Part shown: piece after piece, positions 4,801-55,688 of the stretch | How the letters are laid out: the number at the start of each line of letters is the position of its first letter | How positions within the stretch are numbered: position 1 is the stretch's first letter | NCBI RefSeq assembly: GCF_947623445.1 | Contig: NC_135240.1 | Span: 18,910,001-18,974,000 of the forward strand | Source of the DNA: Clavelina lepadiformis | Taxonomy: Eukaryota > Chordata > Ascidiacea > Aplousobranchia > Clavelinidae | Length of the DNA stretch: 64,000 nt | Direction: 5' to 3' | Translations under genes and position numbers: made by a program | The notes under the pieces: generated by a model | What the model was told of the DNA's origin: nothing | Databases searched by the model: none | The model's input: the letters and a program-made list of their open reading frames with translations, nothing else

Positions 4801-5161
4801 CCACGTTCCGTGACGTCAAACCAAACAAATTAAGTGCGCAGAATTCAAACAGCTGTGAAATGAATCCCCCGAAATAAATTTTTCTTTGTTATATAAAGAA
4901 ATTGATATACTATTCACCTAAAATTAGATCATAGTTATTTGATGGCCAAAACGCTTGCAGCGAAGAGCAAAAAACCGAAGTGGGTCAACAATTTCCATTG
5001 TTGAGGCAAGGCAAACAGATTTTAAAACACATAAGTTTTAATCTACTGTATTTGGAAAAAGCGATCAAAAAATTTTTGCCAGCTATAGAAGTGACTGACA
5101 TAGCTCGGAAAGGGACTATGGTTTAAATTTTTCTATATTTTTACTTAAAAACAGCTGAAAT
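1881..5161. other. Intergenic stretch, no gene seen
   Basis: About 3.3 kb of AT-rich sequence. Open frames here (for example 3083-3337) have composition typical of random AT-rich DNA and no recognisable motif. It holds an imperfect hairpin at 4291-4343 and several TAGGCCTA-type motifs (near 2590 and 3006). The promoter of the gene starting at 5162 presumably lies in its right part, but no core promoter element could be assigned. Confidence 0.4.
4291..4343. repeat. Short imperfect hairpin
   Basis: The outer arms GATCTCTATAAACACG and CGTGTTCATAGAGATC pair at 15 of 16 positions. The 21-base interior TGTTTACAGAGATGTTTATAG partly repeats the arm motif. It could be a fragment of an inverted-repeat element. 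No flanking duplication was found. Confidence 0.5.
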
Positions 5162-5896
5162 ATGAACAAAAAGACAAGTAAAAGGTTAGTTGTATTTGAC
5201 TTTGACCATACTTTTGTACAAGACAACACTGATATGGTTGTATTTGACATGATACAATCAAGTGAAGCAAAGCAAGCTTTATGGAATCAGTACGAAAAGG
5301 GTAAATGGACAAACTTTATGAATGAAGTCTTTGACTATTTGTACAACAACAAGTTTACATTAAATGAGATGAAGATGAAATTAAAAAATATGAAAATCGT
5401 GGATGGGATGCTAGAATTGTTTGAATTCCTGAAAGCCAATTCTCACATATTTGACTGCATCATTGTTTCTGATTCTAATCAATGGTTTATTGAGAGCATT
5501 TTAGAAGTGCAAGGATTGCGCTCCATTATAAAGCATATTTGTACAAACAAAGCCACCATTCAAAATGGCAAGCTTCATGTACTAAATTGCCATTCACACA
5601 GTCATTCTGCATGTCCAGTCAACATGTGTAAAGGGCAATTGTTAATGGAATACAAAGATGAAATGCTGAAAAGTGGAACTAACTACATTAGTGTTTGCTA
5701 TATTGGAGATGGCTCAAATGATTATTGTCCATGTGAAAGATTACACTCCAATGACTATGTATTTGCTCGAAAAGATTACCCTCTTGAGAAAAAAATCATT
5801 TCATCTTCTACGTTGTCAACAAAAAACATTTTAGCAAAGTGTGCATTTTGGGTTAGTGGTGTGGACATTTTGCATAAAATAAAGCATTTAATTTAG
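5162..5896 (+). CDS. PHOSPHO2: PHOSPHO2-like pyridoxal phosphate phosphatase (HAD superfamily), single coding exon
   Basis: A 244-residue intronless open frame, close to human PHOSPHO2 (241 aa). All HAD motifs are present: DFDHT with the nucleophile and acid at D13 and D15, IIVSDSN with S103, K157 in CPVNMCKG, and the metal-binding GDGSNDYCP at 182-190. The C-terminal SGVDI matches the family. Known family members are Mg-dependent cytosolic phosphatases; PHOSPHO2 acts on pyridoxal 5'-phosphate, while PHOSPHO1 acts on phosphocholine and phosphoethanolamine. The FDCII.SDSN stretch favours PHOSPHO2. The start is the first ATG, just after a TTTTTACTTAAAAACAG acceptor-like sequence at 5138-5154, which could end a 5'UTR intron or accept a trans-spliced leader as is common in ascidians (inference). 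An ATTAAA at 5947-5952 may be the poly(A) signal. Confidence 0.93.
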   Translation: MNKKTSKRLVVFDFDHTFVQDNTDMVVFDMIQSSEAKQALWNQYEKGKWTNFMNEVFDYLYNNKFTLNEMKMKLKNMKIVDGMLELFEFLKANSHIFDCIIVSDSNQWFIESILEVQGLRSIIKHICTNKATIQNGKLHVLNCHSHSHSACPVNMCKGQLLMEYKDEMLKSGTNYISVCYIGDGSNDYCPCERLHSNDYVFARKDYPLEKKIISSSTLSTKNILAKCAFWVSGVDILHKIKHLI

Positions 5897-26219: not shown

Positions 26220-29200
26220 TTAAGACGAAGACGACATGCTGGGTCGTTCGATTTGTTCATAATGGTGTTGTCTAGGTGGTCGCGTCTGAAGGTCCGCACC
26301 AAGTGAGCGGGGACGGACTGGCTGATCAACGTTATTAGTCCCGTTAAGCTGAATTGGTGGCAAATTACTTGAAGGCGGCAGTTCTCCTATAACGGAATAA
26401 GCAGCATTGCTATGGCTGGGAATAAAGGTACCGTCGGCCGACCCTGCCCGACTCACGCTCTCGTACAGGGACTCAGGATTGACTTCATCAATCTTTGAAA
26501 AAACAAAAGATGGTATAAAAGCAATAATATTATAGACTATATCGGGAATTGTAATGCTACGAAGATAGAAAAAATGGAACTCGTTAAAATATATACCTTT
26601 GGTTGAAATATCAAGTAACATGGCTGTTAATTAAATTGAGTTTCACAAGTAGCCAATTAATTCCTTCATACCTGGGCATACACGTCTGTATTTGCACTGG
26701 CTTCAGCAGCATTGATGGCACTCATATTCGCATATCTCCCTTGGTCAGCTTCTTTTCGCATGCGAATATGATCAAGACTCTCACGCACGTTGAGTTTGTC
26801 ATACATGGGACCCTGCAAAAGACCTCCAATGTCAAACATACACTCCCATACTACATAATCCATTTAAACAGCAACACATGATTACATATAGGTATTGATT
26901 TAAGATTGCTTACAATGGCAGATTCGTTATTCCATTAAACAGAAGGGCCGTTTTACTTTCATTTTAACATTAAATACTGACACTTCACTATTACTAAATT
27001 ACTTACTACCTTTATTTTGAGGAAAAAATAGTTCACCAATTACCCATAAGTAGGGAAAACAAAACATTATTTTGAACGAAAATGCAAACTGTTCTCAAGG
27101 CCAAATATTAAATGCCAAATACAGTATTAAAATGTGCACAAAATTATATACCTTAATGAGGATAGGGCCTACAGCAAAATAGCCAACATACAATATTATC
27201 CATTCCTTAAACTGATTTACCAATTCAGATCTAATCTGAAGCTTTTAAATTCATGAACAAACTGTGTAGTTGCAAGACATGCCTCTTTTAAACTTAAAAA
27301 CGAAGAGTTGAGAAAAGTTAATATTATTGTGACTAAAAATCACAATAGTGACGATTAACTAAATATTAACCAATTAAGCATGTCGACAAAGCAATCCTAA
27401 AAAGCTGCCTGGCAAGCCATATGATGGGTGAGTGGTCTGCTTAGCTTGGTTTAATCTAACTTAGTAATTTCAATGGACCAAATGTTGAACTACAACGAGA
27501 AGGATTTAAAAAACGCAAAGTCATGGAAACCAAAATGCTATAAAAGTTGTTGAAAAACTTGCTATATAGTATTCCATTTACGAAAAGACAAAACAGCTGC
27601 AAAGTCACGCAAAGAGCAAAGCTTCTGAAACTCTTTTATACAATCAACATAAGAAACAAAACAACTTATAAATCTAGAAAAATGGCATTTTTCTCATTCT
27701 GTGGCAACATGACCATGAATGAATTCTACATGACTTCTATTGTCAATATATACTATAGCATATAAAATATAAATACAAAATTTAAGAAAACAAAAAATAA
27801 AGACAATATAAGACAAAGCAAAATTACCCATTACAATCAGTATGTGATATTCACATGTTTGCCTAATTTGCACGGAGAGTGTGTGATTTACCAACTTATG
27901 TGACTTACACTTGCAACAGCAAGCAGATTGGAGCATGAAAAAACAAGTAAATGGGTGGTAGACGGAAAATAAATTAATAATAAAAATAATAAATGAAAAA
28001 AAGTTGGAAATGGGCCATGCCAATGTGAAAAATTTGGGCAAACATGAATACTAATAGGCTACTGGCGAACAAATACAACATTATCCAAATTATTGACTTC
28101 AATGAAATTTGAAGTTCTAGTTGGTTGATTCAAGTTGATATAGCATTTCTCAAAATAAAAGATTTTTATCAATTGGGGTTGCATCATGTTGTAAGCCAAA
28201 TAAATGATACAAATGAAATTTTATTGTTTTACACAGATAAAAATGTTTTTGGGATTTACTTAGGTCAACCTACATGACATTAGCGTTAATATAATTTTGG
28301 AATAATTTTCTTCGCAGGCACTCCTAAAAAGATGAACACAAATACCTGTTTATCATTGTCAGACAAAGTAGACTGATTTTCTGGTATCTCAGGCATGGAA
28401 ACAGATGGGTCTTCCAGTTCATCCTCAGCATCAAAATTTCTTTCAGGAATGGGAGGAGCAGGAGGTTCATCTGAAACTGCTAATTAATACAGTATAAGAA
28501 TAAAATTGCGTGTGTTGATTGCAAACAAAATCACGCATAATTTATATTATTTCTGCTAAGGATAAAATAAAGATTACAAGCAAAATTCTCCTGCTCATTC
28601 ATACATTCATTTGCATGATACACCCACAATGAGTAGTTGTGGTGTAACAACGGAATAATAATTAAATCTAAACTAGTTTCACGGCGTGTTCTGTTTTAGT
28701 AGACTACATTTTTTCTGCAATGGAACAGAAAACTTTCCTTGAAATTTTGATTTTTTTATTGTTATAAAGAATCCCTGGCAATGCCTAAGTGGTTGTTTTT
28801 CTACAATTCAGTAAAGATAAGCCTTAGGGAATAGGGATATTAGTTCTTTGAAGCATATCTCTTGTTGATTTAGACAAGCCTGTTTCTCCACTTATTTTGG
28901 AAAAAATCAAACATATTCAATTATTCTGGAGAACAGATAAATAAATACAGCAAAAGACACATCAAGTGTTTTTGCATTAAGATGTCAGCAGCAGAAGATG
29001 GAAAATACAAAAATATCTGTTTTTCCATACCTGGTTTCCTTTTCAAGCTCACTTTTTTTAGCTTGTCTATTGTAGCATATTCTGGACGACTATATTTATC
29101 TGGAGAATTTTGATCCATGGACAAATGTTTCGAAGTTCCCGGAAAGTCATCATCATCACTTTCTTTATCTTCATTTTTTTGTTCTGTGCCCTGTACACAA

Positions 29201-32200
29201 ACATTCTTGTTATGTTGAAAAAAGCATAAAAGACAATCCATAAATGTGCAGTGTTCATTGTACAAACTTAACTACTGTATACGATACAAGGTGTTGACAA
29301 TGACATCTACCCTGTCTTACTACTTTCTTTCATCTACTTTGTTTTCAATACAGTTATAAACAATTGTCAATATTTTAAAGAATACTTACAACAACGTGGA
29401 AACAAATTATGTGTTAAACAATATTGCGCACATTCTTATGCACAGCATGTTTAACTGAGATAAATTAACCTATGTGTATATGAAAGTCTAACAGCAGTAA
29501 AAAAAACAAATATTTATTCACACTGAAACACAATGGATGGAAAACAGCACAACAAATGATACAGATCTCCGTTAGAGTGAAAGTGTAGAAAATTAAGGTG
29601 TGAAAAAGTTATGACCTAATTAGATCCTCACTTGTAATGTTTTGTCATCAACTTGTGCATACAGGTCTGTATCTTCAGTGTCTACATTATCGTTGACCTA
29701 CAAAACAAAATTGAGCTAGGTGATCAAAACCAACAATACCACGTACTTTAACCAACTCCACCCAAACTTGAACGTTCTCTGAGTTTCTTATCATTAGATT
29801 GCTAGTAATTAACAGGTGCCGGACCGCAGTTGGCCTGTGTGCGGTAGTTTGCACACCCCAGTCATAGGCTAATCATGCATTGGGAAGCTATAGTTTCCCA
29901 GTTAAATATAAACCAGTTTCAATAATATACTGACCAATCAATGTTCTAATTCATTTAATCAATGTTCTAACTCCGTTTTAACCCAATTGTCATCTGTCAA
30001 TTGATTAATTACCCAAATTGGATGTTTAACAACGAGTTGCATATATCGGATGTTGCATTATGTTTACCAGCAAGAACTATTTTGGATGAAATTGTCTCTG
30101 TTTCAGAACAGAGCTACAACACTATTTCAATGAAAACTTACACTATTTAAACCTAAACCAAACATCTGTCAAAAATGGTAAAAACTCATAATTTGTGAAA
30201 AAGTTCTGCTATTTTTAGGTAATTTGTGAGAGTTTGGGCATATTTAAAAGAATTTATAAAAATTGCAAGAAAAATTTAGTTAGTTTTCTTAATCAAAGTT
30301 TAGATTGTTGCAGCATGGGGACAAATGCAGGGACCGTTCTCCATAGACCTTGTTAAACTTGCAAATATTTAGCTATTTATAAAAACCATGTTATTATTTA
30401 AAAATAATTTATAAAATACCTTACCTTGGCATAAAACGAAGAATCACCACTTCCTTCAGGTATTTCAAGAGTTTTTATCTTCATGCGAAACGTTTTCTTC
30501 TTCTTGGCATCATCAACTTTGGCATACATATCGTCATCATCCTGCACAACATATGATCTTTGGAATACATAGTTATGGTTTGTATCATGTTGCGCATTAT
30601 TGCTAGTGCTATGTCTTCGAAAATGTTACAACTTGAAAGTAAACAATAGCCTCATTAGGCATGATTGCCATGATCGATTGATTGATCATCGTAACAAGCC
30701 CATGAGCATACAAAATCCTATGACAACATCTTTTTGCAAAAAGCATATGTCAATATCTTATAACAACCGATAAAAACAGTTGTCATTGAGTCATTCCTGT
30801 ATGTAATTATAACTAAATCAACCAGGCCCTGTAACCACTACTTTTGAATTTTAATGGTTTGGATATATGTTGTAGTCTCAAAAAATTTGAAAAAAAAAGA
30901 ATTTTGAAAATATCTCAAGATATTTGAGTTATTTGCGATTTGAATTTTTTACCACTTGAGGGAGATTAGATTGGTGAGCACTGGTCACGCTTAGTGATTT
31001 TCTTCAATATCTCTATTTCTGAAGGTAGAATAATGAAACAAATATCATTTTTACCATTTTTGGTGTCAAGGAATTTATTTCAGCAGTTAAAAAGTTTCTT
31101 AAACACTTCCTTCACATGGTAAATTAGGTTTTTTGAGTGAAGATCAAAGGTAAAATTTATGATGCAATTAAAAAAATATCAATGAACTTTGAAACAAAGT
31201 TTTTAAATATTTGTGGTAGTATGGTTGAAGTATTTTCTTATATACAAAAATAGTGAACTTGTTTTTTGAGCTTAAAGAGTAAAATGAGTTTGAAGAAGTG
31301 CACTACATTTTATGGCGACAAGTTTAGATTAACAGACACTATCTTCCGACAATAAAAAAATGCGGCACATGCAATTGATATTTTTTGAAACATCTATCAA
31401 AATGTCTGATAGCACTAAAGCTTCTGTTTTATCCTTGTATGAAAATGATGAATTCACTTGTTTAATGCCTGGAATAAACGCCTTGTGTGAGCGTTTCTAA
31501 AAATGTCCATCAACAAAAGCGGTTTATTCTGTGCAGTTTAGAGGAATTCTATGCTACATTACTTTTCACACTGCAGCAGGGATGATATGCAAGTTACTGT
31601 GAATGATTATACAGCTTTCAAGTCTGATGAAAAGTGGTGGGTGGGATTGATAGTAAAAGTAGACAGTACTCAGCTGAATGCACAAGCGTCCATAACATAC
31701 ATTTTTTGACCCTCAGTGGATGATATGTGCTGGGTTCCATTCCAGCAAATTCTCTGCAAAGTTGCTGCTATAAGTCCTTCCAGTACTTTTACTGGAAGTT
31801 CTTACAGCATTTCTGCAGAACACTTTAATGCAATCACGAATGCCTACGCTAATGGACGATGACATCTAATTATAAGTAGTTCATTTAAAAAATGTTACCT
31901 TGTGTTTTCTCTTAAGATTTTTAGGACTGCAAATTTGCCTCAACTTTAATTCGACTTTTCAAAAATCTGCGCAATCTCCATTATAAAATTCCTGTGCTCT
32001 AACTCAGCCTTTTTCTTGATGAAATTTGACAAAACTTACTTTTTGATACAGTTAACGAATAAATTTTATGCCTTCTATCATCTTTAATCAAAATTTTTGT
32101 TTGTATCTCAGTGAAAATGGTGAAAATATTCACATTATAATTCTATTATGATTACCTGCAGTCTGTGAATATTTTATCATGTGTGAGTATAACTAGTAAT

Positions 32201-35200
32201 TAAATCAGCTAAGAGTAACACGATACCAGAATTTGTCTTCAAAGCATTGCATGTGGGCAGGTTGTTGACATTATGTAGTTCATGTCTTGAACCAATTTCT
32301 ACTTTTGACTCGCATTCAAATTCAATTTTCCAGTTTTATGACGTGCCTTTGTTTTTAGCCCACTAAGTCCAAGTGTCACAGTATCACAAATAGTGCGGTT
32401 GTTCAAACTTATTTTACTCATTAAGCTCAAAAAACAAGTTCACGACGTATGGATATAGGAAAATACTGGAACTACAAAAATTTTTTTAAATTTTGTTTTG
32501 GAAATGACTGCTATTTTTATAATTGCGTCAAGAACTTGACCTTTGATCTTCATTCAAAAACCCTAATTTACTACGTGAAGGAGATGTTCTAGAAACTTTT
32601 TATATGCTGAAATGAATTCCTTGACACCAAAATTAGTAAAAATAACATTTTCTTCGTTATTTTACCTTCAGAAATAGAGATATTGAAGAAAATCACTAAG
32701 CGTGACCAGTGTTTACTAACCTAATCTCCCTCAAGTGACGGAAATTTCAAATCGCAACAACTCAAAAAATACTTGAGATATTTTCAATTATTTTGAAGCT
32801 CTACAACATATATCCAAACCATCAAAATCTATGACCAGTGGTTACAAAATTTAAAAAAATTGGTTGATTATACAGAGAATGATTCCATTACAAGTGGATA
32901 TTATAAGCAGTTAAGCTTTTGAAAACATGATAAACAGTGACAAATTCTTACAGAAAATCCAGACATATGCAAAACAACATGCCATCAATTCAAAGCAAAC
33001 ATCTATACCCAAAATTAACTGTAGACTTATTGCTTTGTACTACATTCTGTTTAAAAACAAATTTACTACGGCATTGACTTTTAATATTTTACTTGAAAAT
33101 ATTACACAAATGATTATATGTCTAGTGATATATGTACTGCAACAAAAAAGATTTTAAAATAAATTTTTTTACTAGTTATCATGGAACTTCTATAAAAATA
33201 CTATGGTTGCCACCAGGCATAATAACATCCGAAACGTGACACCACTGGTGAATTATTTCTGTATTTTAGCAGATATATCTCGTATCTGATATAGAACTTC
33301 TATGTTAACACAGTTCCCAGCTGTCAAGTAGCAACTAAAACACAGTTTGAATAAAGCAATAGAATTTAACAAAGAATAAATAAAATTAAAATAAAATAGA
33401 AATTTTAGGGAATGAATGGACCATCACCTGCACATTAACAGCTTCCATATTTTCAGATATATCAGGAGGAGGGGTAGGTAATCTTCTCCCTTTAGGACTA
33501 GAGTGACCCGGAGTTCCAGCCACTAAAGTATGCAAGATAAAAGAAACTCAAAAGGCTAGGCTTGTATAATTGTTCGTCATTAAAGGTATATACATAATAT
33601 CATATATGCATATATTATATGCCATAGTGATAGCTGAAACTCAACAACCATTTATATATAGATCAGTTTTATAATACAGTAGAAATTTGGTTAATACATC
33701 CACCTCGGGACCAGCTGATTTTGGATTTAATAAGCTGTGATTACAAGTTGTAAAAACTAGTTTTCCTAGAAGTGCAAAAAACAATTTCCCAGGCGGTCAA
33801 AATGCATTCAATGAATTATATTGTATTTATTCAACATGTAGGCTAGAAAAAGCAAGAGACTTTGCTGCAATAAGAAGACTACTTCAGTTACAATGAGAAA
33901 CACTTTTAACTGCAATGACTGATGTTCTAATCCAGTGGGTCTCAACCTCAACCTAATCTAAAATAACCTGTTTCATTAGACATTTGTTCACAATCGACTA
34001 CTGTTTCTTCAAAGTTAATAGCCATTAATCTACACAGCATGTTCAATAAGATTTCGTACATAATAGGCAATTATCTGAACACACTAAAGAATGATTTGTC
34101 CGCAGGGGGAATCAAGAGTGGATGTATTAAGCAGTAGCTGGTTGTATTAAACAGGGTTTTTATAACGAGGAATGACTAGGAAAACTTCATTCCAAGCAAT
34201 TTGGATGTAACAAGCAGTTAGTTATATTAACCATAGATGTATTAACTGGATTCTACTGTATGTGTCCATATACAGTGAAAGCCGTATCCACTTGGTCCCA
34301 CTCAAAATTTCTGATAACTCTATGTAACCTAACTGGTCCTAACTAAAGTAAAATCAATTAACTTATATCTATCAGGAGTTTAATCTACCCTTCAACATTG
34401 AGTTTACCGAGCCAGTCCTCAGACTACCTTTTCTTCATGGAACCACCTGACTAATTTTAAACAAGTATGTCACTTGCTTGGAAATCATGCTTTATCAGGA
34501 AGCGATTAATTTAGTGTTCTTTTGTTACGAACAACACTGTGCTTAAAGCAGGGCTTCTCAACTGGGGGTAATGGCCCCTCTGGTGGGCCATGAGCATATG
34601 CCTCACTAGTGAGCAATAGTGTAGCAGAAGGTAAGACGAGTTAAAGCGGAACAAAAGTTTCTAACGTTTTTGTGCTTGCTGTGCAAAATTAGAGGCACGA
34701 AGGCTACAGCACATGCAGTAGTGAAATAAAAAGTGTTTTGCAATCAAAAATCGACATTTTTTTATTGGTAAGCAGGGGGCACGAATTTTGAGGGCCACGA
34801 ACCAAGAAAGGTTGAGAACACTGGCTTAAACTTTTCCAATTCTTAAATCTCAGTAGTAACAAGGTTGTAGTCTATTAATTTTACAGATGTATAATTTCGA
34901 AACACTGGACCATCTAGACCAGTGGTTCCCAATCGCGGCTCTTAGAGCCGCATGCGGCTCCAAGCTAGCCTTCTTGCGGCTCTCAATGAGCCCTGAAAAT
35001 CCCACAAAAAAATAAAAAATCTATTAATAATAATTAGGTCGATTATTTTTTGACTTGTCAAAAAAAGTCAAAAATTGGTCTAAATTTATAGCGTTAGGTC
35101 AAAATTGTTTACAAATTTTTCATTTTACATCATACAGTTACACCTTGTAGCCTACTTTATACTGTTGTGAATGGCCCATTGTCTACTTATTGTGAATCAT

Positions 35201-37326
35201 AAACGGCTTCCTGAATCCTTAACCACAATTGCGACTCGGTTTGACAAAGTTGTTAAAGTTCAAAGCCAATGCGAAGTTGGACATTAAATTGATTTGTGTT
35301 ATTTTTGTCTTGTTAGTGTTGCTATTCGTTGCTACATGCTTTAAAATTTTCGTTATAATTTCTTGAGTGTTTTCATGCGGCTCCATACGTACTCTGAAGT
35401 TTGAAATTCGGCCCCGACACCAAAAAAGGTTGGGAACCACTGATCTAGACCATACGTGTCAAACTCCCGGCCCGCGGGCCACATCCGGCCCGTTTTACAA
35501 TAAAACTTGGCCCGCAATCGCTATTTTATACATTGAACTATTTCCGTGAGATCATTGTACAGTATAACTTACTTTTTTCCAGCAAGAAACAAGATTATAA
35601 CAAATCGCACAATACAGCAGCACAGCAGTTGCCCCATCATACGATTGAATAAATCGATTTATCCTAACGCTTGTAATCTGGGCTGCTTTTTTCTTTATTG
35701 TTTGTTAATTCTTTAATGCTTTTGCAAGGAGATGAATGAAACATAATGAAGTAAGAGAAGAATAATCAAAAATAGCCCAGTCAAAAATATCAAAAATTTG
35801 GTGTTGTTTCGCTGCCTGTTCCAATTCATGTTTCGTGTCACGAAACGTTCCATCAAGTTTTATCTTCACGGCCCGTGGCGTTAAATAAGTTTTGAGTTTT
35901 GGCCCCTGGTGCAATTGAGTTTGACACCCCTGATCTAGACATTTACCATATTTATCCGAATAGAAGATCCCTGTTTTCTATTTTTTTAAAGGTACAGTAT
36001 TTTGTGGGGCTTCTGAACAAGGGAACTTTTTAATGAAGTAATCATAGTTGTATTGTATCAGTATGTAATCATTTCAACTGAATGTTTTAACCTATTGAAA
36101 GTGCAAATATACAAGCAAACATATATTTAAAGAAGCACCTGAAGACTCATTGGACTCAGCATTAATACCATCAGCTGAGCTTCTTTGGTTGGTTTCTTGT
36201 ACAACAGGTGGTAGTTGAGGTAATTCACGACTGGACTGGGCTGAAAATTGCACAAGGTTAAACGTAATTTCCTGCAATTCTATGATAGTTTAAAAGTGAT
36301 TCTTAACCTTTGAATGCTTGTGTAAAAAATAAAAGCACTATTTTATTGACCAGCATATGAATGTATGCATTGCCTACAAAAAAAGTATAAAACGAATAAA
36401 GGTTAAATTTACATTTCAATATCACAGAACTCAAATGTGATAAATGCACAATTACACACTTCCTATGCACAAACCTAGCAAAAATGCATTTAAAAATTCC
36501 TCACGCGATCGGTTTTATTTTACAACATATATTTAACCAGACCCTTCTTTCAATATTGATTTATCAGGTCACAATTTAACATTTGGTTAATTGAGAACAA
36601 TTTAGACAAACATCACATATATTGTGAAGACAATGTCATAATGAATACCAGAGTATTTCAATAACATTTGGTTTTAACTACATCCATTTTTTGATACACT
36701 TTCAAAATGTCAAGATCGTGTATTAAAAATTTTGTATTAAACATTGAAATGTAATTTGTTAAGTGCAGTATAAAAAGTTAAACTCTTTCTGACGGACGCG
36801 CCAAAAAGCAGTGGTTAAGAAATATTGGTTTAAAATGTAGATAAATTGAAAAGTTATGTTACATATAGAATGGGGTCGCCATTCATTTTTTCCATTTTCC
36901 GTTGCAGCTTGAGTTTGTGAAGGTTTAGAGACTTCATTGGCTCCCTTTGCTTCATCACTCTCGGAATGGATGTCAGTTCGTGAAGAATACCCAATTGTTG
37001 TAATTTTAGGTCTGTAAGAAGTACATATTTTTAATAAATTTAAAGACAGAACTATTTTCATCAGAAATTAAATTATTTGAAGGAAAAAGCAACATTTTCA
37101 TAATACATTTGTTAAAAACAATAACTACAGTGCAAAAAAAAACAAAAACAAACATTTTTTTATAAAGCAAGGTTAGTGATACCATACTGCATAATATGAA
37201 AATACTAATACACACACATACAGTCTATATATATGCTTACTGTTTCTTTTTGTGTCCAAGGCACAAAATCAATAAAAAAACTAAACTAAAGGCAGACACG
37301 AATATAATGACAACGGGTGCAAACAT
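26220..37326 (-). CDS. PAG1: PAG1/Cbp-like transmembrane adaptor with multiple YxxPhi motifs, 10 exons, 440 aa
   Basis: Exons in gene order: 37326-37241, 37011-36863, 36240-36139, 33522-33428, 30541-30425, 29697-29632, 29190-29031, 28479-28346, 26812-26672, 26492-26220. All are GT-AG and the frame is continuous. Residues 3-25 form one membrane helix right after the start Met, followed by basic HKKK, so the N-terminus is probably outside. The long acidic cytoplasmic tail has SSRELPQLPP (82-90; human PAG1 has SRELPRIPP), PPAPPIPE, and YxxPhi sites near Y150, Y181, Y196, Y243, Y307, Y330, Y348, Y360, Y382 and Y428. Human PAG1 is 432 aa; it is phosphorylated by Src kinases and recruits Csk through its SH2 domain. 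The vertebrate CxxC palmitoylation pair is not visible (one Cys, C23 or so) and the tail ends SMSSSS rather than a PDZ ligand. A stop lies in frame before the Met, but an upstream exon cannot be excluded. Alternative: a LAX/LAT-like adaptor. Confidence 0.82.
29813..29861. mobile_element. hAT MITE remnant
   Basis: CAGGTGCCGGACCGCAGTTG followed by TAGTTTGCACACCCCAG recalls the two ends of the MITE at 21628-22036, here almost abutting. It is probably a deletion product. It lies in an intron of the PAG1-like gene. Confidence 0.4.
30788..32890. mobile_element. DNA element of about 2.1 kb with inverted repeats of about 500 bp
   Basis: The left arm (about 30788-31310) and right arm (about 32390-32890) are inverted copies. 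Clear paired blocks include GTAACCACT/AGTGGTTAC, TTGATGGTTTGG-like words, CTTAGTGATTTTCTTCAATA, and GAACTTGTTTTTTGAGCTTA. Arms differ by scattered substitutions. Between them, about 31400-31890 (+) reads as a decayed protein with several stops: STKASVLSLYENDEF, then a tail with EKWWVG, VDDMCWVPF and TGSSYSISAEHFNAI. That tail resembles, from memory, uncharacterised transposon-associated proteins. The superfamily could not be assigned and a target duplication was not found. It sits in intron 4 of the PAG1-like gene. Confidence 0.7.
33677..34258. mobile_element. Tigger/pogo-like MITE (582 bp)
   Basis: The left end CAGTAGAAATTTGGTTAATA and right end (read inverted) CAGTAGAATCCAGTTAATAC are imperfect inverted repeats. 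Both sides are flanked by TA (33675-33676 and 34259-34260). Internal GGATGTATTAA words recur. CAGT ends plus a TA duplication fit the Tc1/mariner-pogo group. No transposase is present. It lies in intron 3 of the PAG1-like gene. Confidence 0.75.
34549..34823. mobile_element. hAT-type MITE (275 bp)
   Basis: The left end CAGGGCTTCTCAACTGG and right end GGTTGAGAACACTG are imperfect inverted repeats. Flanks GCTTAAAG (34541-34548) and GCTTAAAC (34824-34831) match at 7 of 8 positions. Subterminal GGGCCATGA and GGGCCACGA face each other. It is in intron 3 of the PAG1-like gene. Confidence 0.85.
34920..35442. mobile_element. hAT-type MITE (523 bp), first of a same-site pair
   Basis: The ends CAGTGGTTCCCAATC and GGTTGGGAACCACTG are inverted. 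ATCTAGAC flanks it at 34912-34919 and 35443-35450. The subterminal region has GCGGCTCTTAGAGCCGC and ATGCGGCTCCA. No transposase is present. Intron 3 of the PAG1-like gene. Confidence 0.92.
35451..35932. mobile_element. hAT-type MITE (482 bp), second of a same-site pair
   Basis: The left end CATACGTGTCAAACTC and right end GAGTTTGACACCCCTG are inverted with a few mismatches. ATCTAGAC lies directly before it (35443-35450, shared with the preceding MITE) and directly after it (35933-35940). Subterminal CGGCCCGCGGGCC is palindromic. The internal sequences differ from the neighbouring MITE, so this is a different family. Confidence 0.9.
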
Positions 37327-44585: not shown

Positions 44586-46984
44586 CAGGGTGGTCCAAAC
44601 CCTGGCACGCGGGCCGCATGCGGCCCGCGTGAAGCTTTTGTGCGGCCCGCGAACACTTTGTGGATGCCGGAATTATCAGTGCTAAATCCAAGGTTTAAAA
44701 ATACACCTACGCTTTATAAATACATTACATTCGCCACAACCCTAAATAAGTCGTGCATAATCGGGTCAATAGGTAACTATGAGGGAACAATGTCGGTTTG
44801 TGACGACACAAACGTGCGTTGATATTTTGCTTTTGTTGCTAGCGCAGAGTACACTCTCGAATTTGGTTGTAAATTAGCTGCAACTCGTTTATTTAGTCAA
44901 GGGGAAAAGTTTACTAAAAGCATGAGTGTCAAAAGAAAAGTGTCAGAGGAAAACAGAGAGTTCAATTCTACTTGGGAGGAAAGGTATTTTTTTGCCAATA
45001 GCAATGGTAAACCACAGTGTCTGGTTTGCTTGCAAGTTATTTCAGTGCCTAAAGAGTTTAATTTAAAGCGACATTACAGCACCATGCATGAGAAAAAATA
45101 TGGCCAATACCATGGAACTTCTAGGGAAGCAATTTTGAAAGAGTTAAAGGGCAATTATTCCAAGCAAAAAAAAATGATTATTGGTTTTTCCAAACCCGAT
45201 TCAACTGCAGACCTTAAAGCTTCATACGAAGTTGCTCTAACGCTCGCAAAACATGGAAAAGCTTTTCGAGACGGGGAGATTGTAAAAGAGTGTGCGATTA
45301 AGATGGCCCTTTCCTTTGGAGATAAAAAAATAGCCAAAAAATTTGAAAACGTTTCTTTATCTCATCAAACCGTTGCAAGAAGAGTGGCAGAATTGAGCGA
45401 AAACGTGACTGTGCAATTGAAAGACGTTGTTCAACAATGCAAGTACTTCTCTTTAGCCTTGGATGAAAGTACTGACATCAGTGACGTTTCCCAGCTTTTG
45501 GTTTTCATTCGCACTATTGATAAAAACTTTACTGTATTTGAAGAACTACTCAAGATATCTCCACTTCGTGGAACTACAAAAGGTATCGACATATATAACA
45601 GCCTTGCGTCTGTCGTTGATGCTTATGGAGGATTTGAGAAGTGTGCATGTGTTGTAACAGATGGTGCCAGGGCAATGACAGGACGAAAGAGAGGACTAGT
45701 TGGCATTCTAAAAGATCATGGAGTGAACTGCCCAACATTGCATTGTATCATTCACCAAGAAGCACTATGTGCCAAAGTTTTGCAGATGAGTGATGTTATG
45801 CTTAGTGTGACGAATATAGTCAACATCATCAAAGGGGGAAACAGAGCCCAGAGACATAGAAAATTCATCCAGTTCTTAAAAGATGTGGGTGCAGAATATG
45901 AAGATGTTCCACTATTCTCAAAAATTCGATGGTTAAGTGCAGGCAAAACATTGAAACATTTCTTTTCTTTGCGAAAAGAAATACTAAATTTTCTCCAGAA
46001 TGAGATAGAAGGGACGACCGAGACATACCAGATTCAGTTGAGTGATGACAAGTTCATTGGTTCGTTGGCGTTCTTGACAGACATTAGTAATCACTTCAAT
46101 ATCCTAAACATGAAACTGCAAGGTAAGAAACAAAATATTTCTCAATTGGTTGGACACATTGAAGGTTTTCGCAAGAAACTTGTGCTATTTAAGGCTTCTT
46201 TGCAAAGGAATGATGCTACCCACTTTCCTGCATGCAGTGAAGTACTTGGTGAAAGAAAAAGTATCGATTTTTCTGCATTTTCTAACAAAATTGGTGACAT
46301 CATCGATGAGTTTAACGACAGATTCGCTGACTTTGATTTGCTGAAAGCACAAATGGAGCTTTTCAACAATCCAATGGAAATAGTTATAGAATCCCAACCA
46401 TCTTACGTTCAGCAAGAACTATGTGAATTGCAGTCAGACCCTTTTCTTCTTTCACGTAAGAATGAGCGTTACGACGCCTTTTGGAGGCTTTTAAGCAACG
46501 AACAGTTTCCACGATTAAACGACTTCGCACTGAAGATATGCTCCATGTTTGGTAGCACATACATATGTGAAAGCACTTTCTCCATTATGAAGCGATTAAA
46601 AAGCGACACACGGAACAGAATGGCTGATGAAACCCTGGATGCCTGCTTACGTCTGTCGACCACTGAATTTAAAGCAGAGATCGACACCATATGCAAAAGC
46701 AAAAACGCAGAGTCGCAAGCAGAGATTAAAAAGTGAGTTAGGCGTGCAGCAAAACATTAGGTCGATCAGAACAGCAAACTCAGTCCTTTCCTTTCATTCA
46801 TTTCATTTCATTCATACAACTGTATTTTGTAAGCGACAAGATTTGTTAATGTTCATAGCCTGCGAACAGTAGTTAACAACGTTTCTACTTTCAGCAACGC
46901 GTTATCATTTCTCACTATGCGGCCCGTGAAGTTTTTCTCAGACCCTAATGTGGCCCTTCATGTTCGCAGTCTTGGACCACCCTG
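44586..46984 (+). mobile_element. Apparently complete autonomous hAT transposon (2399 bp)
   Basis: The left end CAGGGTGGTCCAAAC and right end CTTGGACCACCCTG are inverted repeats. A perfect 8-bp duplication GTCTAGTT lies at 44578-44585 and 46985-46992. Subterminal motifs CGCGGGCCGCATGCGGCCCG on the left and ATGCGGCCCGTGAAG on the right mirror each other. The only gene is an uninterrupted 604-codon transposase. Everything expected of a mobile copy is present, and the perfect flanks and open frame argue for recent insertion. Confidence 0.95.
44922..46736 (+). CDS. hAT transposase, BED finger plus RNase-H-like DDE domain, 604 aa
   Basis: An N-terminal BED zinc finger has C33, C36, H51 and H56, which in this superfamily binds the terminal and subterminal repeats. 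The catalytic core shows D181 in LALDESTDIS, D247 in VVTDGARAM, the CxxH pair C275/H278 in LHCIIHQEALC, and the third acid E550 in YICESTFSIMKRLKS within the C-terminal dimerisation region. KIRWLSAGK is also conserved. Length and motif order match the Charlie-type hAT module captured in vertebrate GTF2IRD2 and ZBED/FAM200 genes, from memory. The family excises and reinserts DNA with 8-bp target duplication. The ATG lies 336 bases inside the left end, and the frame has no intron or stop. No host gene function is implied. Confidence 0.95.
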   Translation: MSVKRKVSEENREFNSTWEERYFFANSNGKPQCLVCLQVISVPKEFNLKRHYSTMHEKKYGQYHGTSREAILKELKGNYSKQKKMIIGFSKPDSTADLKASYEVALTLAKHGKAFRDGEIVKECAIKMALSFGDKKIAKKFENVSLSHQTVARRVAELSENVTVQLKDVVQQCKYFSLALDESTDISDVSQLLVFIRTIDKNFTVFEELLKISPLRGTTKGIDIYNSLASVVDAYGGFEKCACVVTDGARAMTGRKRGLVGILKDHGVNCPTLHCIIHQEALCAKVLQMSDVMLSVTNIVNIIKGGNRAQRHRKFIQFLKDVGAEYEDVPLFSKIRWLSAGKTLKHFFSLRKEILNFLQNEIEGTTETYQIQLSDDKFIGSLAFLTDISNHFNILNMKLQGKKQNISQLVGHIEGFRKKLVLFKASLQRNDATHFPACSEVLGERKSIDFSAFSNKIGDIIDEFNDRFADFDLLKAQMELFNNPMEIVIESQPSYVQQELCELQSDPFLLSRKNERYDAFWRLLSNEQFPRLNDFALKICSMFGSTYICESTFSIMKRLKSDTRNRMADETLDACLRLSTTEFKAEIDTICKSKNAESQAEIKK

Positions 46985-50062: not shown

Positions 50063-50508
50063 TATCAGTAAATTGCCGTTAATTATAAAATTTGCCATAT
50101 ATCAGATAGCTGTTCTGCCAGATTGGAAAGTTTGCTGATTTTGGGGAAGAAATTCCCCTCACAAGAAGCTCAAAAGAAAACAATTGCACATGCAAATAGT
50201 GCAGAAAAAGCATGTCAGCTGAACATCGTTAATTTTGGGGAAGGTTTATGCATGTAGGTATGCACTAACCAAACTTGTCAATCTTGTTGTTTTGCAGTAC
50301 ATGGACAATATAGTGGTATCAACAGAAACATCTGACTAGTAAAAACAGTTTGTTTCTTGCTGTTTTTGCTTTGGAATTTTTGTGGATAGGCCTAATGTTT
50401 TTTTTTAAATTTATGTTAGATTAAAAACTAAAAGTAGAATGAAAAAAGACTGATGAAATATTATGTACATAAACTGACTGTTAGTTCAATATTGGCAGTT
50501 TGTTGAAG

Positions 50509-52832
50509 ATGTCACTTATTGCAAAGAAAGTTGTGAGGATCAACATAGAGCCAAGATTTGCTTTATCATTTTGGAGAGTAATTAATTGTTCTTCAAATTT
50601 ATTGCAATCTTCAAATTGTGGGAAAATCAACAGCGATAAGAAATATATAAGCAGCTGTCCCAACTTGTGTTGTGGAAAAGCAGTCAAATTTTGTTCAATT
50701 AGTGTACTCTCAAGACAGTTTCCTAAACAAAGTTTGGTTTTACCTTGTCCTACCTTTAGCTTTGATTATTATGAAAAACTATCCTATTTTCAAACACCAC
50801 GTCGATATAATGCATCATCTCCAAAGCCAAGCAGTGAAGAAACTGAAGATGATTTGCAAAAAATACTTAAAGATAAATCACTTGGTATGGCAACCAAACT
50901 AAAACTGCTTTTTAGACAGTATGGGATAATGATGATCGGTGTTCATTTAACAACCTCAGCAGTATGGGTGGCTATATTTTATTTAGCTGTAAGCAGGTGA
51001 GTTACCTATCTACAATATCGTCTTTGTAACTTGAATTAGTTCATGAGAAGATATATACGTAAACTTTTGCTTAGTTTTAGTTACACTATCACATTAACTA
51101 TTAGCACCAAAAACATTACTATTTTTAGAGGAATAGATATACTTCCATTTCTTGAAAATATGGGTTTGTTTGATTTCCTGGAACGAATGGGATTTTCTTA
51201 CATGGATAAGTTAAAAAGCTCTGGTGCGAGTAACTTTCTGATGACATATCTTTTATATGAGGTAAGCTTTAAAATGTAGCATAAACAAAACAATATAACT
51301 TGCATTGTATAGTATCGAGAAATATTTTCCCACATCGTTGGTGTAACAACCAACCCATTGGTCCATTTTGGCATATAAAACCCACGAGTTTAGCTTACTT
51401 ATGCACGCCAATATATAAAATATGACATTATTATGTTTCAATGTATTCCATCCTGATCTTGGTATGTATTTGTTAGTGAACTAAGCATACACAGTTTAAC
51501 TGGCTTTATTGATTTTGTGTGGACAATTTCAATCAACTCTGATGCTTTACAAGTTTACATAGTTGGAACAAGATAATCTGGAGTTGGAACAAAGTATCCA
51601 ATTATATAACAATTTGTTCATGTTAAGATTTTCTTTATCTGAAAATGAAGGATGGGACCATACGAATAATCTCATAATAATTGAGTTGTGCTGTTTTGTA
51701 CCTTTTGGTATTATTTGCAGTAAAAATAAGCAATGAATAAATAAATCAAAAAATGAATCAGAACTACAGCAGTAATTAAGTCTTGCAACAAAAGTTAAAC
51801 ATTAAAAGTTTGCAACAAACCACTGGCTCCCGATTTTTTCAAAACATTTTGCACGGACGTACCTTTGCAATTTTTTAATGATTTGTCGTCCCTTAAAACT
51901 CAACGGCTAAAAACTTAATTGTATTCTAATTTTTTTATTCTCTTGTGTGTAAACACACCAATGCTGTAGGGAAGTAATGCAAATATATAACTAAAATAAT
52001 GCAAAGAACATAAAAAAGCATTATTACGCTTTTGGCATATAGAAATGGTCTCAATACTTTTTGTGTGAATACTACACCTGGGCGTGACAGTAGCATTGCA
52101 TTGAAATTGCTTAACCGGCTGTTTTAATTTTTCGATATTGATATATGTGTTCCTGCTCCAAAGCAAAAGGCATCTCAAAACTTCCAAACTACTCAACCTA
52201 GTTTGAGGGAGTTATCGACAGCGAAAAAAAGTTCAGTGAAAACAATATCAGTACAAAATTTTTTTCTTTTGATTCGTGATAAAGTGATATTTATTTATGC
52301 TTTGAATTTTTATAACAAGAGAAATGTGGATGAGCTTATAAACTGTACCGTGATTATAAATGCGAAGACCTTGTTGTTATCAATCATTGTATTTTTGTAT
52401 TGCAAGTTATTTTTCAATTAGTAAAATCAATTTGAATCTTATCTTAAGTTTTAATAAAATTTCTAATTTTATCTTCTTCTTAATTTTGAATCTTATCTTA
52501 AATTTTAATAAAAAGATATCAATGATTTAATTGCTTATCATTAATTTTTTTTTCAGCTTGCTAAACCCATTCGATATCCTGTCACATTGTTTGGAACCAT
52601 TTATGCAGTAAGATATCTGAGAAAAATTGGTTATTTTAAACCACCGCCTCAATCTGCAAGTATGACCCAGTTGGTTGAAACACAAGGAAAATTACTTCGA
52701 AGCAGATTTAGAAAAACTACAGTTAAATACAGAGACCGTTATAAGCAACACATCAAGTTCCCAGACAGGAAAAGAAAACCCTTTTCTGCGAAATCAGGAC
52801 GAACCACTTCCAATTCAAATCGTGAAACCTAG
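50509..52832 (+). CDS. FAM210A: FAM210A-like mitochondrial membrane protein (DUF1279), 3 exons, 298 aa
   Basis: Exons: 50509-50996, 51129-51261, 52557-52832, all GT-AG with continuous frame. The first 100 residues are basic and Ser/Arg-rich without long acidic runs (MSLIAKKVVRINIEPRFALS), consistent with a mitochondrial presequence. The DUF1279 core starts at FRQYGIMMIGVHLTTSAVWV with a membrane helix (about 141-162), continues through GIDILPFLENMG, then AKPIRYPVTLFGTIYAVRYL and GYFKPPP. The basic tail ends SNRET. Human FAM210A is 272 aa, and VHLTTSAVW resembles FAM210A (VHLITSGVW) more than FAM210B, though GYFKPP recalls the latter. FAM210A supports mitochondrial protein synthesis and muscle/bone mass in mammals. 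The first ATG is used; a frame extension upstream lacks another ATG. ATTAAA at 53001-53006 may be the poly(A) signal. Confidence 0.92.
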
Positions 52833-54206: not shown

Positions 54207-55595
54207 TCAGTTTTTAGTAGAGAGTTTTTCCTTTCTTCTGAAACAGCCGAGTTGTCTTTCTTTGTCACTGTTGTCAAGCACAAATGCTTTCAAAAGAATG
54301 TTTGATAAAGTAAGACATGCTCCTTGAATTACAACCATTGGACTATCGATACGACGCAAAGCATGGCTGAGATGAGCTCGGCAGCAATGCAAGTTGCACT
54401 TACCAAACAGTTTATAGGCTGAGTGTACGAAATGTAGGCCTACTGTTGAGAGTAGAGGTACAGTTAGTCCACCTCTATTTAAGTTTGTGAGAAACTCCGA
54501 ATTAATCCGATGGTCGTCGTCATTTTCAGTTTCGATACGCAAGATATTAGCTCGATATTTGTGTTCCAAATATCCAGCTAGAAAAATACATTTATGCTTG
54601 ACACTGTCATTAGATTGCACTAGGTCTTCAGTGTCAGCAATGGTGATGTCAAATTGATCATCATCAATGCAAATGTTAGAGGTGCAAGGCACATCATGAG
54701 ACTCGCACGGAGTTGACTCATATTTTAAAAGTGCATGGAGGTTTTTGGTTTTTGCAGCTGCCTTGATATCTACAATGTCAATATAGAAATTACCTCCACT
54801 GCGTTGTCTGGCTTGACCAAAGAACTTTTCAAGGGCCTCATCAGCAAACACACCAGGTAGAACGTAGATGAAGTTGTGCTGAGTCAGTAGCAACTCTGCG
54901 GCTTCGATGTTGGCTCTTGTAGACAGTACAAAAGCTTCTTCAGTTTGATTAGTAAACTTCTGCGTCCGACCTCGACCACCTGACCATGCACAAGAGGATA
55001 TAATGTCACAAGTTTCATTAAGTTTCTTGAAACTAGTGCAGTTCTTGGTCCATGGTTGACGACACTCATCACGCATGTTAATACCGGAATATCGATCTTT
55101 CACATTCATCATGTGAAACCAATCAGTGATGAGTTTGACAAAAATGATGGTACCCTCGTTAATGCCAAGTTTATCCTTTAGAGTTGAAAGAGTAGCGACT
55201 GTCTAGTCATTGAAGATCTGGCATACAAAAGGCACGCTTTGTCTCTGCAAAGATTTTGTGTACACAGCTGTGTATGTGATCTTGGTAAGACGGATGCTGT
55301 TTTTCCGGTCTTCATTGTACAGTGCTTCTATGTCGTTCCATCGTGCAATATATGTGTTTCCATCTTTTGTGAAAGAAAGTTCCTTATCATGCACCGTTGT
55401 CCAGTTATTTCTTATATTTTTAAAAGAATGAACGTAGTCAAAAACAAGGAAAGCATAAGAATTTATAGCGTCAATGAAGACTTTACCAGGACCATGTAAT
55501 TTACCATAAACCGCAACATTTGTATTGCAATTATCACCTACACAAGAAATTATACTACCACGAGATAATGAGATGAGACCAAGAGATAATAACAT
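54207..55595 (-). pseudogene. P-element (THAP9-like) transposase fragment
   Basis: Two open segments, 55595-55203 and 55112-54207, lie in one frame separated by a TAG at 55203-55205. The first has SCVGDNCNTNVAVYGKL and FDYVHSFKNIRNNWTTV, matching the D..N..N and VH..KNIRNNW signatures of the P/THAP9 RNase-H-like domain. The second has LPGVFADEALEKFFGQARQR followed by SGGN, the E.FF...R..GG.N block near the third acidic residue, and a C-terminal region. The N-terminal THAP finger and leucine zipper are absent because the right terminal repeat begins only about 80 bases upstream. These features identify the family but not an active enzyme. Confidence 0.85.
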
Positions 55596-55688
55596 AAAAT
55601 ATTGGGACCATATCTATTTAAGGTGTCTATGATTGGGACCCAAGTTTCGTAACCCAAGAGTACGAGTTACTAGTCCTTCTATTTAAGG

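Follow-up and report, generated by a model that had tools for sequence, protein, structure and literature searches.

A tunicate single-pass membrane protein with SH2 and SH3 docking motifs and probable kinship to vertebrate PAG1/Cbp

The closest described system is the vertebrate membrane adaptor PAG1/Cbp. PAG is described as ubiquitously expressed and palmitoylated and as binding Csk through one phosphotyrosine (PMC6082945), and as binding Fyn and Lyn via SH2 and SH3 (PMC3968143). The initial annotation of the locus treated PAG1 as a lymphocyte adaptor, a framing that is too strong in view of the ubiquitous expression described in PMC6082945; for the same reason, finding a homolog where lymphocyte receptors are absent is less of a paradox. 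A literature search turned up, among the matches listed, no account of a membrane anchor of the PAG1 type in any non-vertebrate.

Csk and Src kinases themselves predate vertebrates. Several other transmembrane adaptors resemble, in some respects, the tunicate protein described below. LAT, NTAL/LAT2 and LAX1 carry YxN sites, the pattern favoured by the Grb2 SH2 domain, and SIT1, TRAT1 and SCIMP are short and carry YxxPhi sites, the SCIMP segment LPPLPPRNW being slightly like the tunicate PPIPERNF. LIME1 (PF15332), a transmembrane adaptor associated with Csk and Src kinases, has the sites EYARV, LYSRV and VYESI in the sequence used here.

The gene and its tunicate relatives

Clavelina lepadiformis is an aplousobranch ascidian, a tunicate. 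In the 64,000-nucleotide stretch of its genome that was analysed (the window), ten exons on the minus strand run from the ATG at 37326 to the stop codon at 26220 and join in frame, with AG/GT borders and matching phases:

Exon 1, 37241..37326, minus strand: start codon, short N-terminus, membrane helix, juxtamembrane Cys22, Lys stretch
Exon 2, 36863..37011, minus strand: identical to the NCBI protein
Exon 3, 36139..36240, minus strand: SRELPQLPP, the first RxLPxxP motif
Exon 4, 33428..33522, minus strand: SPKGRRLPTPP, the second RxLPxxP motif
Exon 5, 30425..30541, minus strand: DMYAKV and IKTL..EGSGDSSFYAK
Exon 6, 29632..29697, minus strand: DLYAQV
Exon 7, 29031..29190, minus strand: EYATIDKLKK, the segment closest to PAG1 EYASVDRNKK
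Exon 8, 28346..28479, minus strand: EPPAPPIPERNFD; tandem acceptor 28479/28470
Exon 9, 26672..26812, minus strand: PMYDKL, the Grb2-type YANM, and YAQ
Exon 10, 26220..26492, minus strand: YESV, YSVI, the last site HHYEQI, and the stop codon

The intron phases are 2, 1, 1, 0, 0, 0, 1, 0 and 0. The predicted protein of 440 residues is letter-for-letter NCBI LOC143469273 isoform X1, which is named uncharacterized. This length follows from the exon-8 acceptor at 28479, and use of the tandem acceptor at 28470, 9 bases downstream, gives 437 residues. When the 209-Mb assembly was searched with the Clavelina protein, the matches listed numbered ten, all of them the exons given here, and thus a second copy was not found in the assembly.

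A search of 5.8 billion proteins returned the Clavelina protein itself and four relatives, including those of Phallusia mammillata and Ciona intestinalis, with 35-41% identity. The relatives are 425-523 residues long and the alignment spans 97-99% of the length, which argues against exons drawn from different genes. The weak donor of exon 2 is the point that speaks for such a wrong joining. Against it stand the identical NCBI model, the full-length relatives, and the fact that two of these come as open reading frames from contigs no longer than 1610 and 5051 bases, into which the intron-bearing gene would not fit; an artefact of this kind is largely refuted and we give it almost no weight. A profile search of the protein collection with the five tunicate sequences found no further member among the matches listed, and the tunicate profile had no match among solved structures at E up to 10.

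The architecture is shared throughout this family. Hydropathy indicates a short N-terminus and a single helix in all five proteins; in Clavelina the best 19-residue hydrophobic stretch covers residues 5-23 (mean 3.18), and any 19-residue stretch starting beyond residue 60 stays at or below 0.28. Outside the helix the Clavelina protein reads as disordered. The Cys22 that follows the helix is invariant, and two RxLPxxP motifs and PPIP[ED]R are common to the five proteins. Nine YxxPhi sites occur in constant order in all five, the sixth of which is always YxN (YANM, YANI, YENI, YVNI or YANL). In Clavelina, ten of the 12 tyrosines lie in YxxPhi, where 2.14 would be expected and 5000 shuffles reached at most 8.

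The organism guessed at in the initial annotation was right in kind, since the protein is that of an ascidian. Three further elements of it are borne out, namely ten exons joining in frame to 440 residues, a minimal N-terminus with one membrane helix, and about ten YxxPhi sites ending with YEQI. A fourth, the motif SRELP.(L/I)PP, holds for Clavelina as SRELPQLPP, but SRELP occurs in just three of the five tunicates, the others having TRTLP and GRTLP. We conclude that the gene is genuine and that tunicates conserve it together with its architecture.

Two of the introns hold repeated sequence. In intron 4, positions 30830-32846 contain inverted repeats with arms of 283, 82 and 46 nt that are 83-85% complementary and separated by about 1.1-1.9 kb, an arrangement resembling that of mobile elements whose terminal inverted repeats are long. 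Intron 3 has two adjacent elements of ~0.5 kb (34913-35449 and 35444-35939), each flanked by inverted repeats of 20-23 nt (95% and 83% complementary), and their ends resemble those of hAT-type elements.

Comparison with vertebrate PAG1

To compare the family with PAG1 we used a test set of 15 vertebrate proteins, selected out of 120 that were retrieved. The profile built from the five tunicate proteins scored all 15 at 18.7-32.3 bits. The same profile gave at most 5.0 bits on seven other transmembrane adaptors in the sequences used here: 5.0 for TRAT1, 2.6 for LAX1, 0.7 for SCIMP, -0.5 for LIME1, -2.1 for SIT1 and -2.2 for LAT2, with LAT not reported. All seven decoys are recognised by Pfam, SIT1 below its cut-off and TRAT1 via the SIT model; one of the five tunicate members in turn weakly matches Pfam SIT (E 0.55).

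Alignment of the tunicate and PAG1 profiles with hhalign gave a probability of 84% (P 7.5e-6) and a score of 50.2, compared with 23.7 for the reversed profile. It covers profile residues 1 to 442; the membrane helix lies at one end and the final YxxI tyrosine at the other, with the same order of anchors between them. The best HMMER segment consists of LY..V and EYA[ST][VI]D.-KK, then PP.P and acidic residues, and reaches 24.4 bits in the PAG1 protein P0006. The pattern EYA[ST][VI][DN][KR] is found in 5/5 tunicates and 120/120 PAG1 proteins. In a joint alignment, 39 columns are conserved at 80% in both groups, as an uncontrolled count, and direct BLASTP of the Clavelina protein with a PAG1 gave 21.9 bits (E 0.036, calculated for a single comparison).

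Other searches returned little or nothing. With default filters the tunicate profile reports two of the 15 PAG1 proteins, and the best 7997 candidates that it drew from 5.8 billion proteins include no PAG1. The reverse comparison is weak: the PAG1 profile scored the five tunicates at 8.7, 8.4, 7.3, -0.3 and -4.0 bits, the lowest being Clavelina, and reported none of the five with default filters. Pfam PAG (PF15347) matched none of the five proteins at E up to 10, nor Clavelina alone. The same model found nothing in a six-frame genome search that had no positive control, and a genome search with the single PAG1 protein P0006 yielded no candidate.

The shared motifs raise the question of convergence, in which a tunicate membrane scaffold of separate origin acquired these SH2 and SH3 docking motifs independently and works in a PAG1-like manner with no kinship. 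Residue shuffles (0/1500) and reversed sequences (0/15) never reached the lowest PAG1 score. When the motifs were kept during shuffling, however, 28 of 1500 sequences scored at least as high as the lowest PAG1 and 3 of 1500 at least as high as the mean, with a maximum of 31.1, indicating that part of the signal is motif content. In block shuffles the lowest PAG1 score was reached by 76/1500 sequences with 40-residue blocks, 22/1500 with 20-residue blocks and 1/1500 with 10-residue blocks, and the mean by 5, 0 and 0, respectively. Among the hhalign controls the score was reached by 0/60 single-column shuffles, 0/60 with 10-column blocks, 2/60 with 20-column blocks and 1/60 with 40-column blocks.

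Convergence thus draws on these controls, on the failure of the reverse profile and of Pfam, and on a disagreement between methods over the partner of PAG1 SRELPRIPP, which HMMER pairs with the first tunicate RxLPxxP motif and hhalign and MAFFT with the second. On the other hand, the seven adaptors carry many motifs of this kind and score low, the segment from EYA[ST][VI]D.-KK to PP.P aligns together with its flanks, and the anchors follow an identical order all the way between the helix and the final tyrosine. We consider convergence unlikely, though deserving of some weight, and prefer common descent.

The features of the two groups can be set side by side. Like PAG1/Cbp, the tunicate family has a very short N-terminus, one helix, a juxtamembrane cysteine, RxLPxxP, the EYA[ST][VI]D.-KK segment, a PP.P segment with acidic residues after it, and about nine YxxPhi sites of which the last is YE.I near the C-terminus. 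Unlike PAG1/Cbp, it has a second RxLPxxP motif. The CSSC found in 94/120 PAG1 proteins is replaced by one juxtamembrane cysteine in all five tunicates, and neither the PDZ-ligand tail TRL (117/120) nor the Csk site MYSSV (114/120) is present in any of them. With two defining features of PAG1 lacking and no match to the Pfam model, we do not file the tunicate protein as a proven PAG1.

Gene order was compared as well. We take human PAG1 to lie at 8q21 beside members of the TPD52, stathmin, inositol-phosphatase and lipocalin families. In Clavelina, TPD52 and stathmin are on contig C4, the inositol-phosphatase family is on C5, C1, C3 and C4, and the locus and its window are on C1; no lipocalin family was found in the genome. 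Synteny with these four families lends no support. The homology to PAG1 put forward in the initial annotation is partly supported: the profile prefers PAG1 over seven adaptors, and the profile alignment takes in everything between the helix and the final YxxI site, but the reverse search is weak and no backing comes from Pfam, the genome search with a PAG1 protein, the PDZ tail or synteny. Common descent with vertebrate PAG1 is probable, short of proven orthology.

Docking sites and likely mode of action

The two groups differ in their tyrosine sites. A YxN followed by a hydrophobic residue is present in 5/5 tunicates and in 3/120 PAG1 proteins. We take the MYSSV tyrosine of PAG1 (mouse Y314) to be its Csk-docking site, and in the profile and joint alignments four of the five tunicate rows place their YxN tyrosine opposite this one; in the Clavelina row, the two are three residues apart. 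If the alignment is right, the vertebrate Csk site corresponds to a Grb2-type site in tunicates. Sites elsewhere in the tunicate tail could serve Csk. The Csk SH2 consensus Y[TAS][KRQN][MIVR] occurs 4-5 times per tunicate protein (expected ~0.1) and 0 times in the three PAG1 proteins counted; since it misses the known Csk site of PAG1, YSSV, we place little weight on these counts.

By analogy, the tunicate protein most likely works like PAG1. We think it rather likely that it is a tyrosine-phosphorylated single-pass Src/Csk scaffold, probably sharing the ancestral gene of PAG1; palmitoylation, phosphorylation, binding and regulation are inferences. The helix and the probably palmitoylated cysteine would tether the long disordered tail to the inner side of the membrane. 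There, Src-family kinases would engage the RxLPxxP motifs through their SH3 domains and phosphorylate tyrosines of the YxxPhi sites. These sites, once phosphorylated, could dock SH2 domains of the Src-family, Csk and Grb2 types, and Csk recruited to the membrane in this way would shut off the Src kinases.

The conserved YxN site also suggests a different output, in which the protein is a Grb2-type activating scaffold, comparable to LAT, NTAL or LAX, rather than a Csk anchor and acts mainly on Ras/MAPK through YxN. The contrast in YxN between tunicates and PAG1 fits such a role, as do the five YxN sites in each of LAT, LAT2 and LAX1 (sequences used here). In the tunicate family, however, one YxN is conserved, and it is one among nine YxxPhi sites; the tunicate profile left LAT unreported and scored LAT2 and LAX1 low, and a Grb2 gene is not established in the Clavelina genome. 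We regard this role as quite improbable and retain the Src/Csk scaffold as the preferred reading.

A broader scheme would combine the two roles in a pre-vertebrate all-purpose adaptor, one tail of which docked Src, Csk (at YA[KQ][VI]) and Grb2 (at the YxN in the position of the PAG1 Csk site), with vertebrates later splitting these jobs between PAG1 for Csk and LAT-type adaptors for Grb2. This is speculative, and we rate it as unlikely.

If the protein is a membrane anchor of the PAG1 type, this scaffold is older than vertebrates and lymphocyte receptors. It would also give a testable role to LOC143469273 and to LOC100175574 of Ciona, both named uncharacterized; Ciona carries the gene and, as a laboratory chordate, would allow the idea to be put to the test.

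Kinase genes and other features of the genome

The kinases required by the proposed mechanism have candidate genes in Clavelina. Csk-like exons lie at C2:13.85-13.86 Mb, with a summed score of 330 for CSK versus 204 for SRC, and include an SH2 exon with 61% identity to the CSK sequence used here. Src-like exons at C3:3.31-3.32 Mb score 837 for SRC versus 225 for CSK, with identity up to 91%. The first five kinase loci examined were neither Csk nor Src, and both were among the next nine. A separate locus, C2:18981600-18984200 (L002), holds an intronless frame of 596 codons that encodes a tyrosine-kinase-like domain as well as two SH2 stretches.

The window contains further coding sequence. Two adjoining frames of 331 and 136 codons at 54207-55613 on the minus strand, without a Pfam match, look transposase-like by eye. 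An unbroken frame of 637 codons at 44823-46736 has a Spin-doc zinc finger and a hAT dimerisation domain and represents a hAT-type transposase-like gene. At 5159-5896, a single-exon frame of 245 codons matches the Put_Phosphatase family over its length, and 50485-51000 is an exon of a FAM210A/B-like gene.
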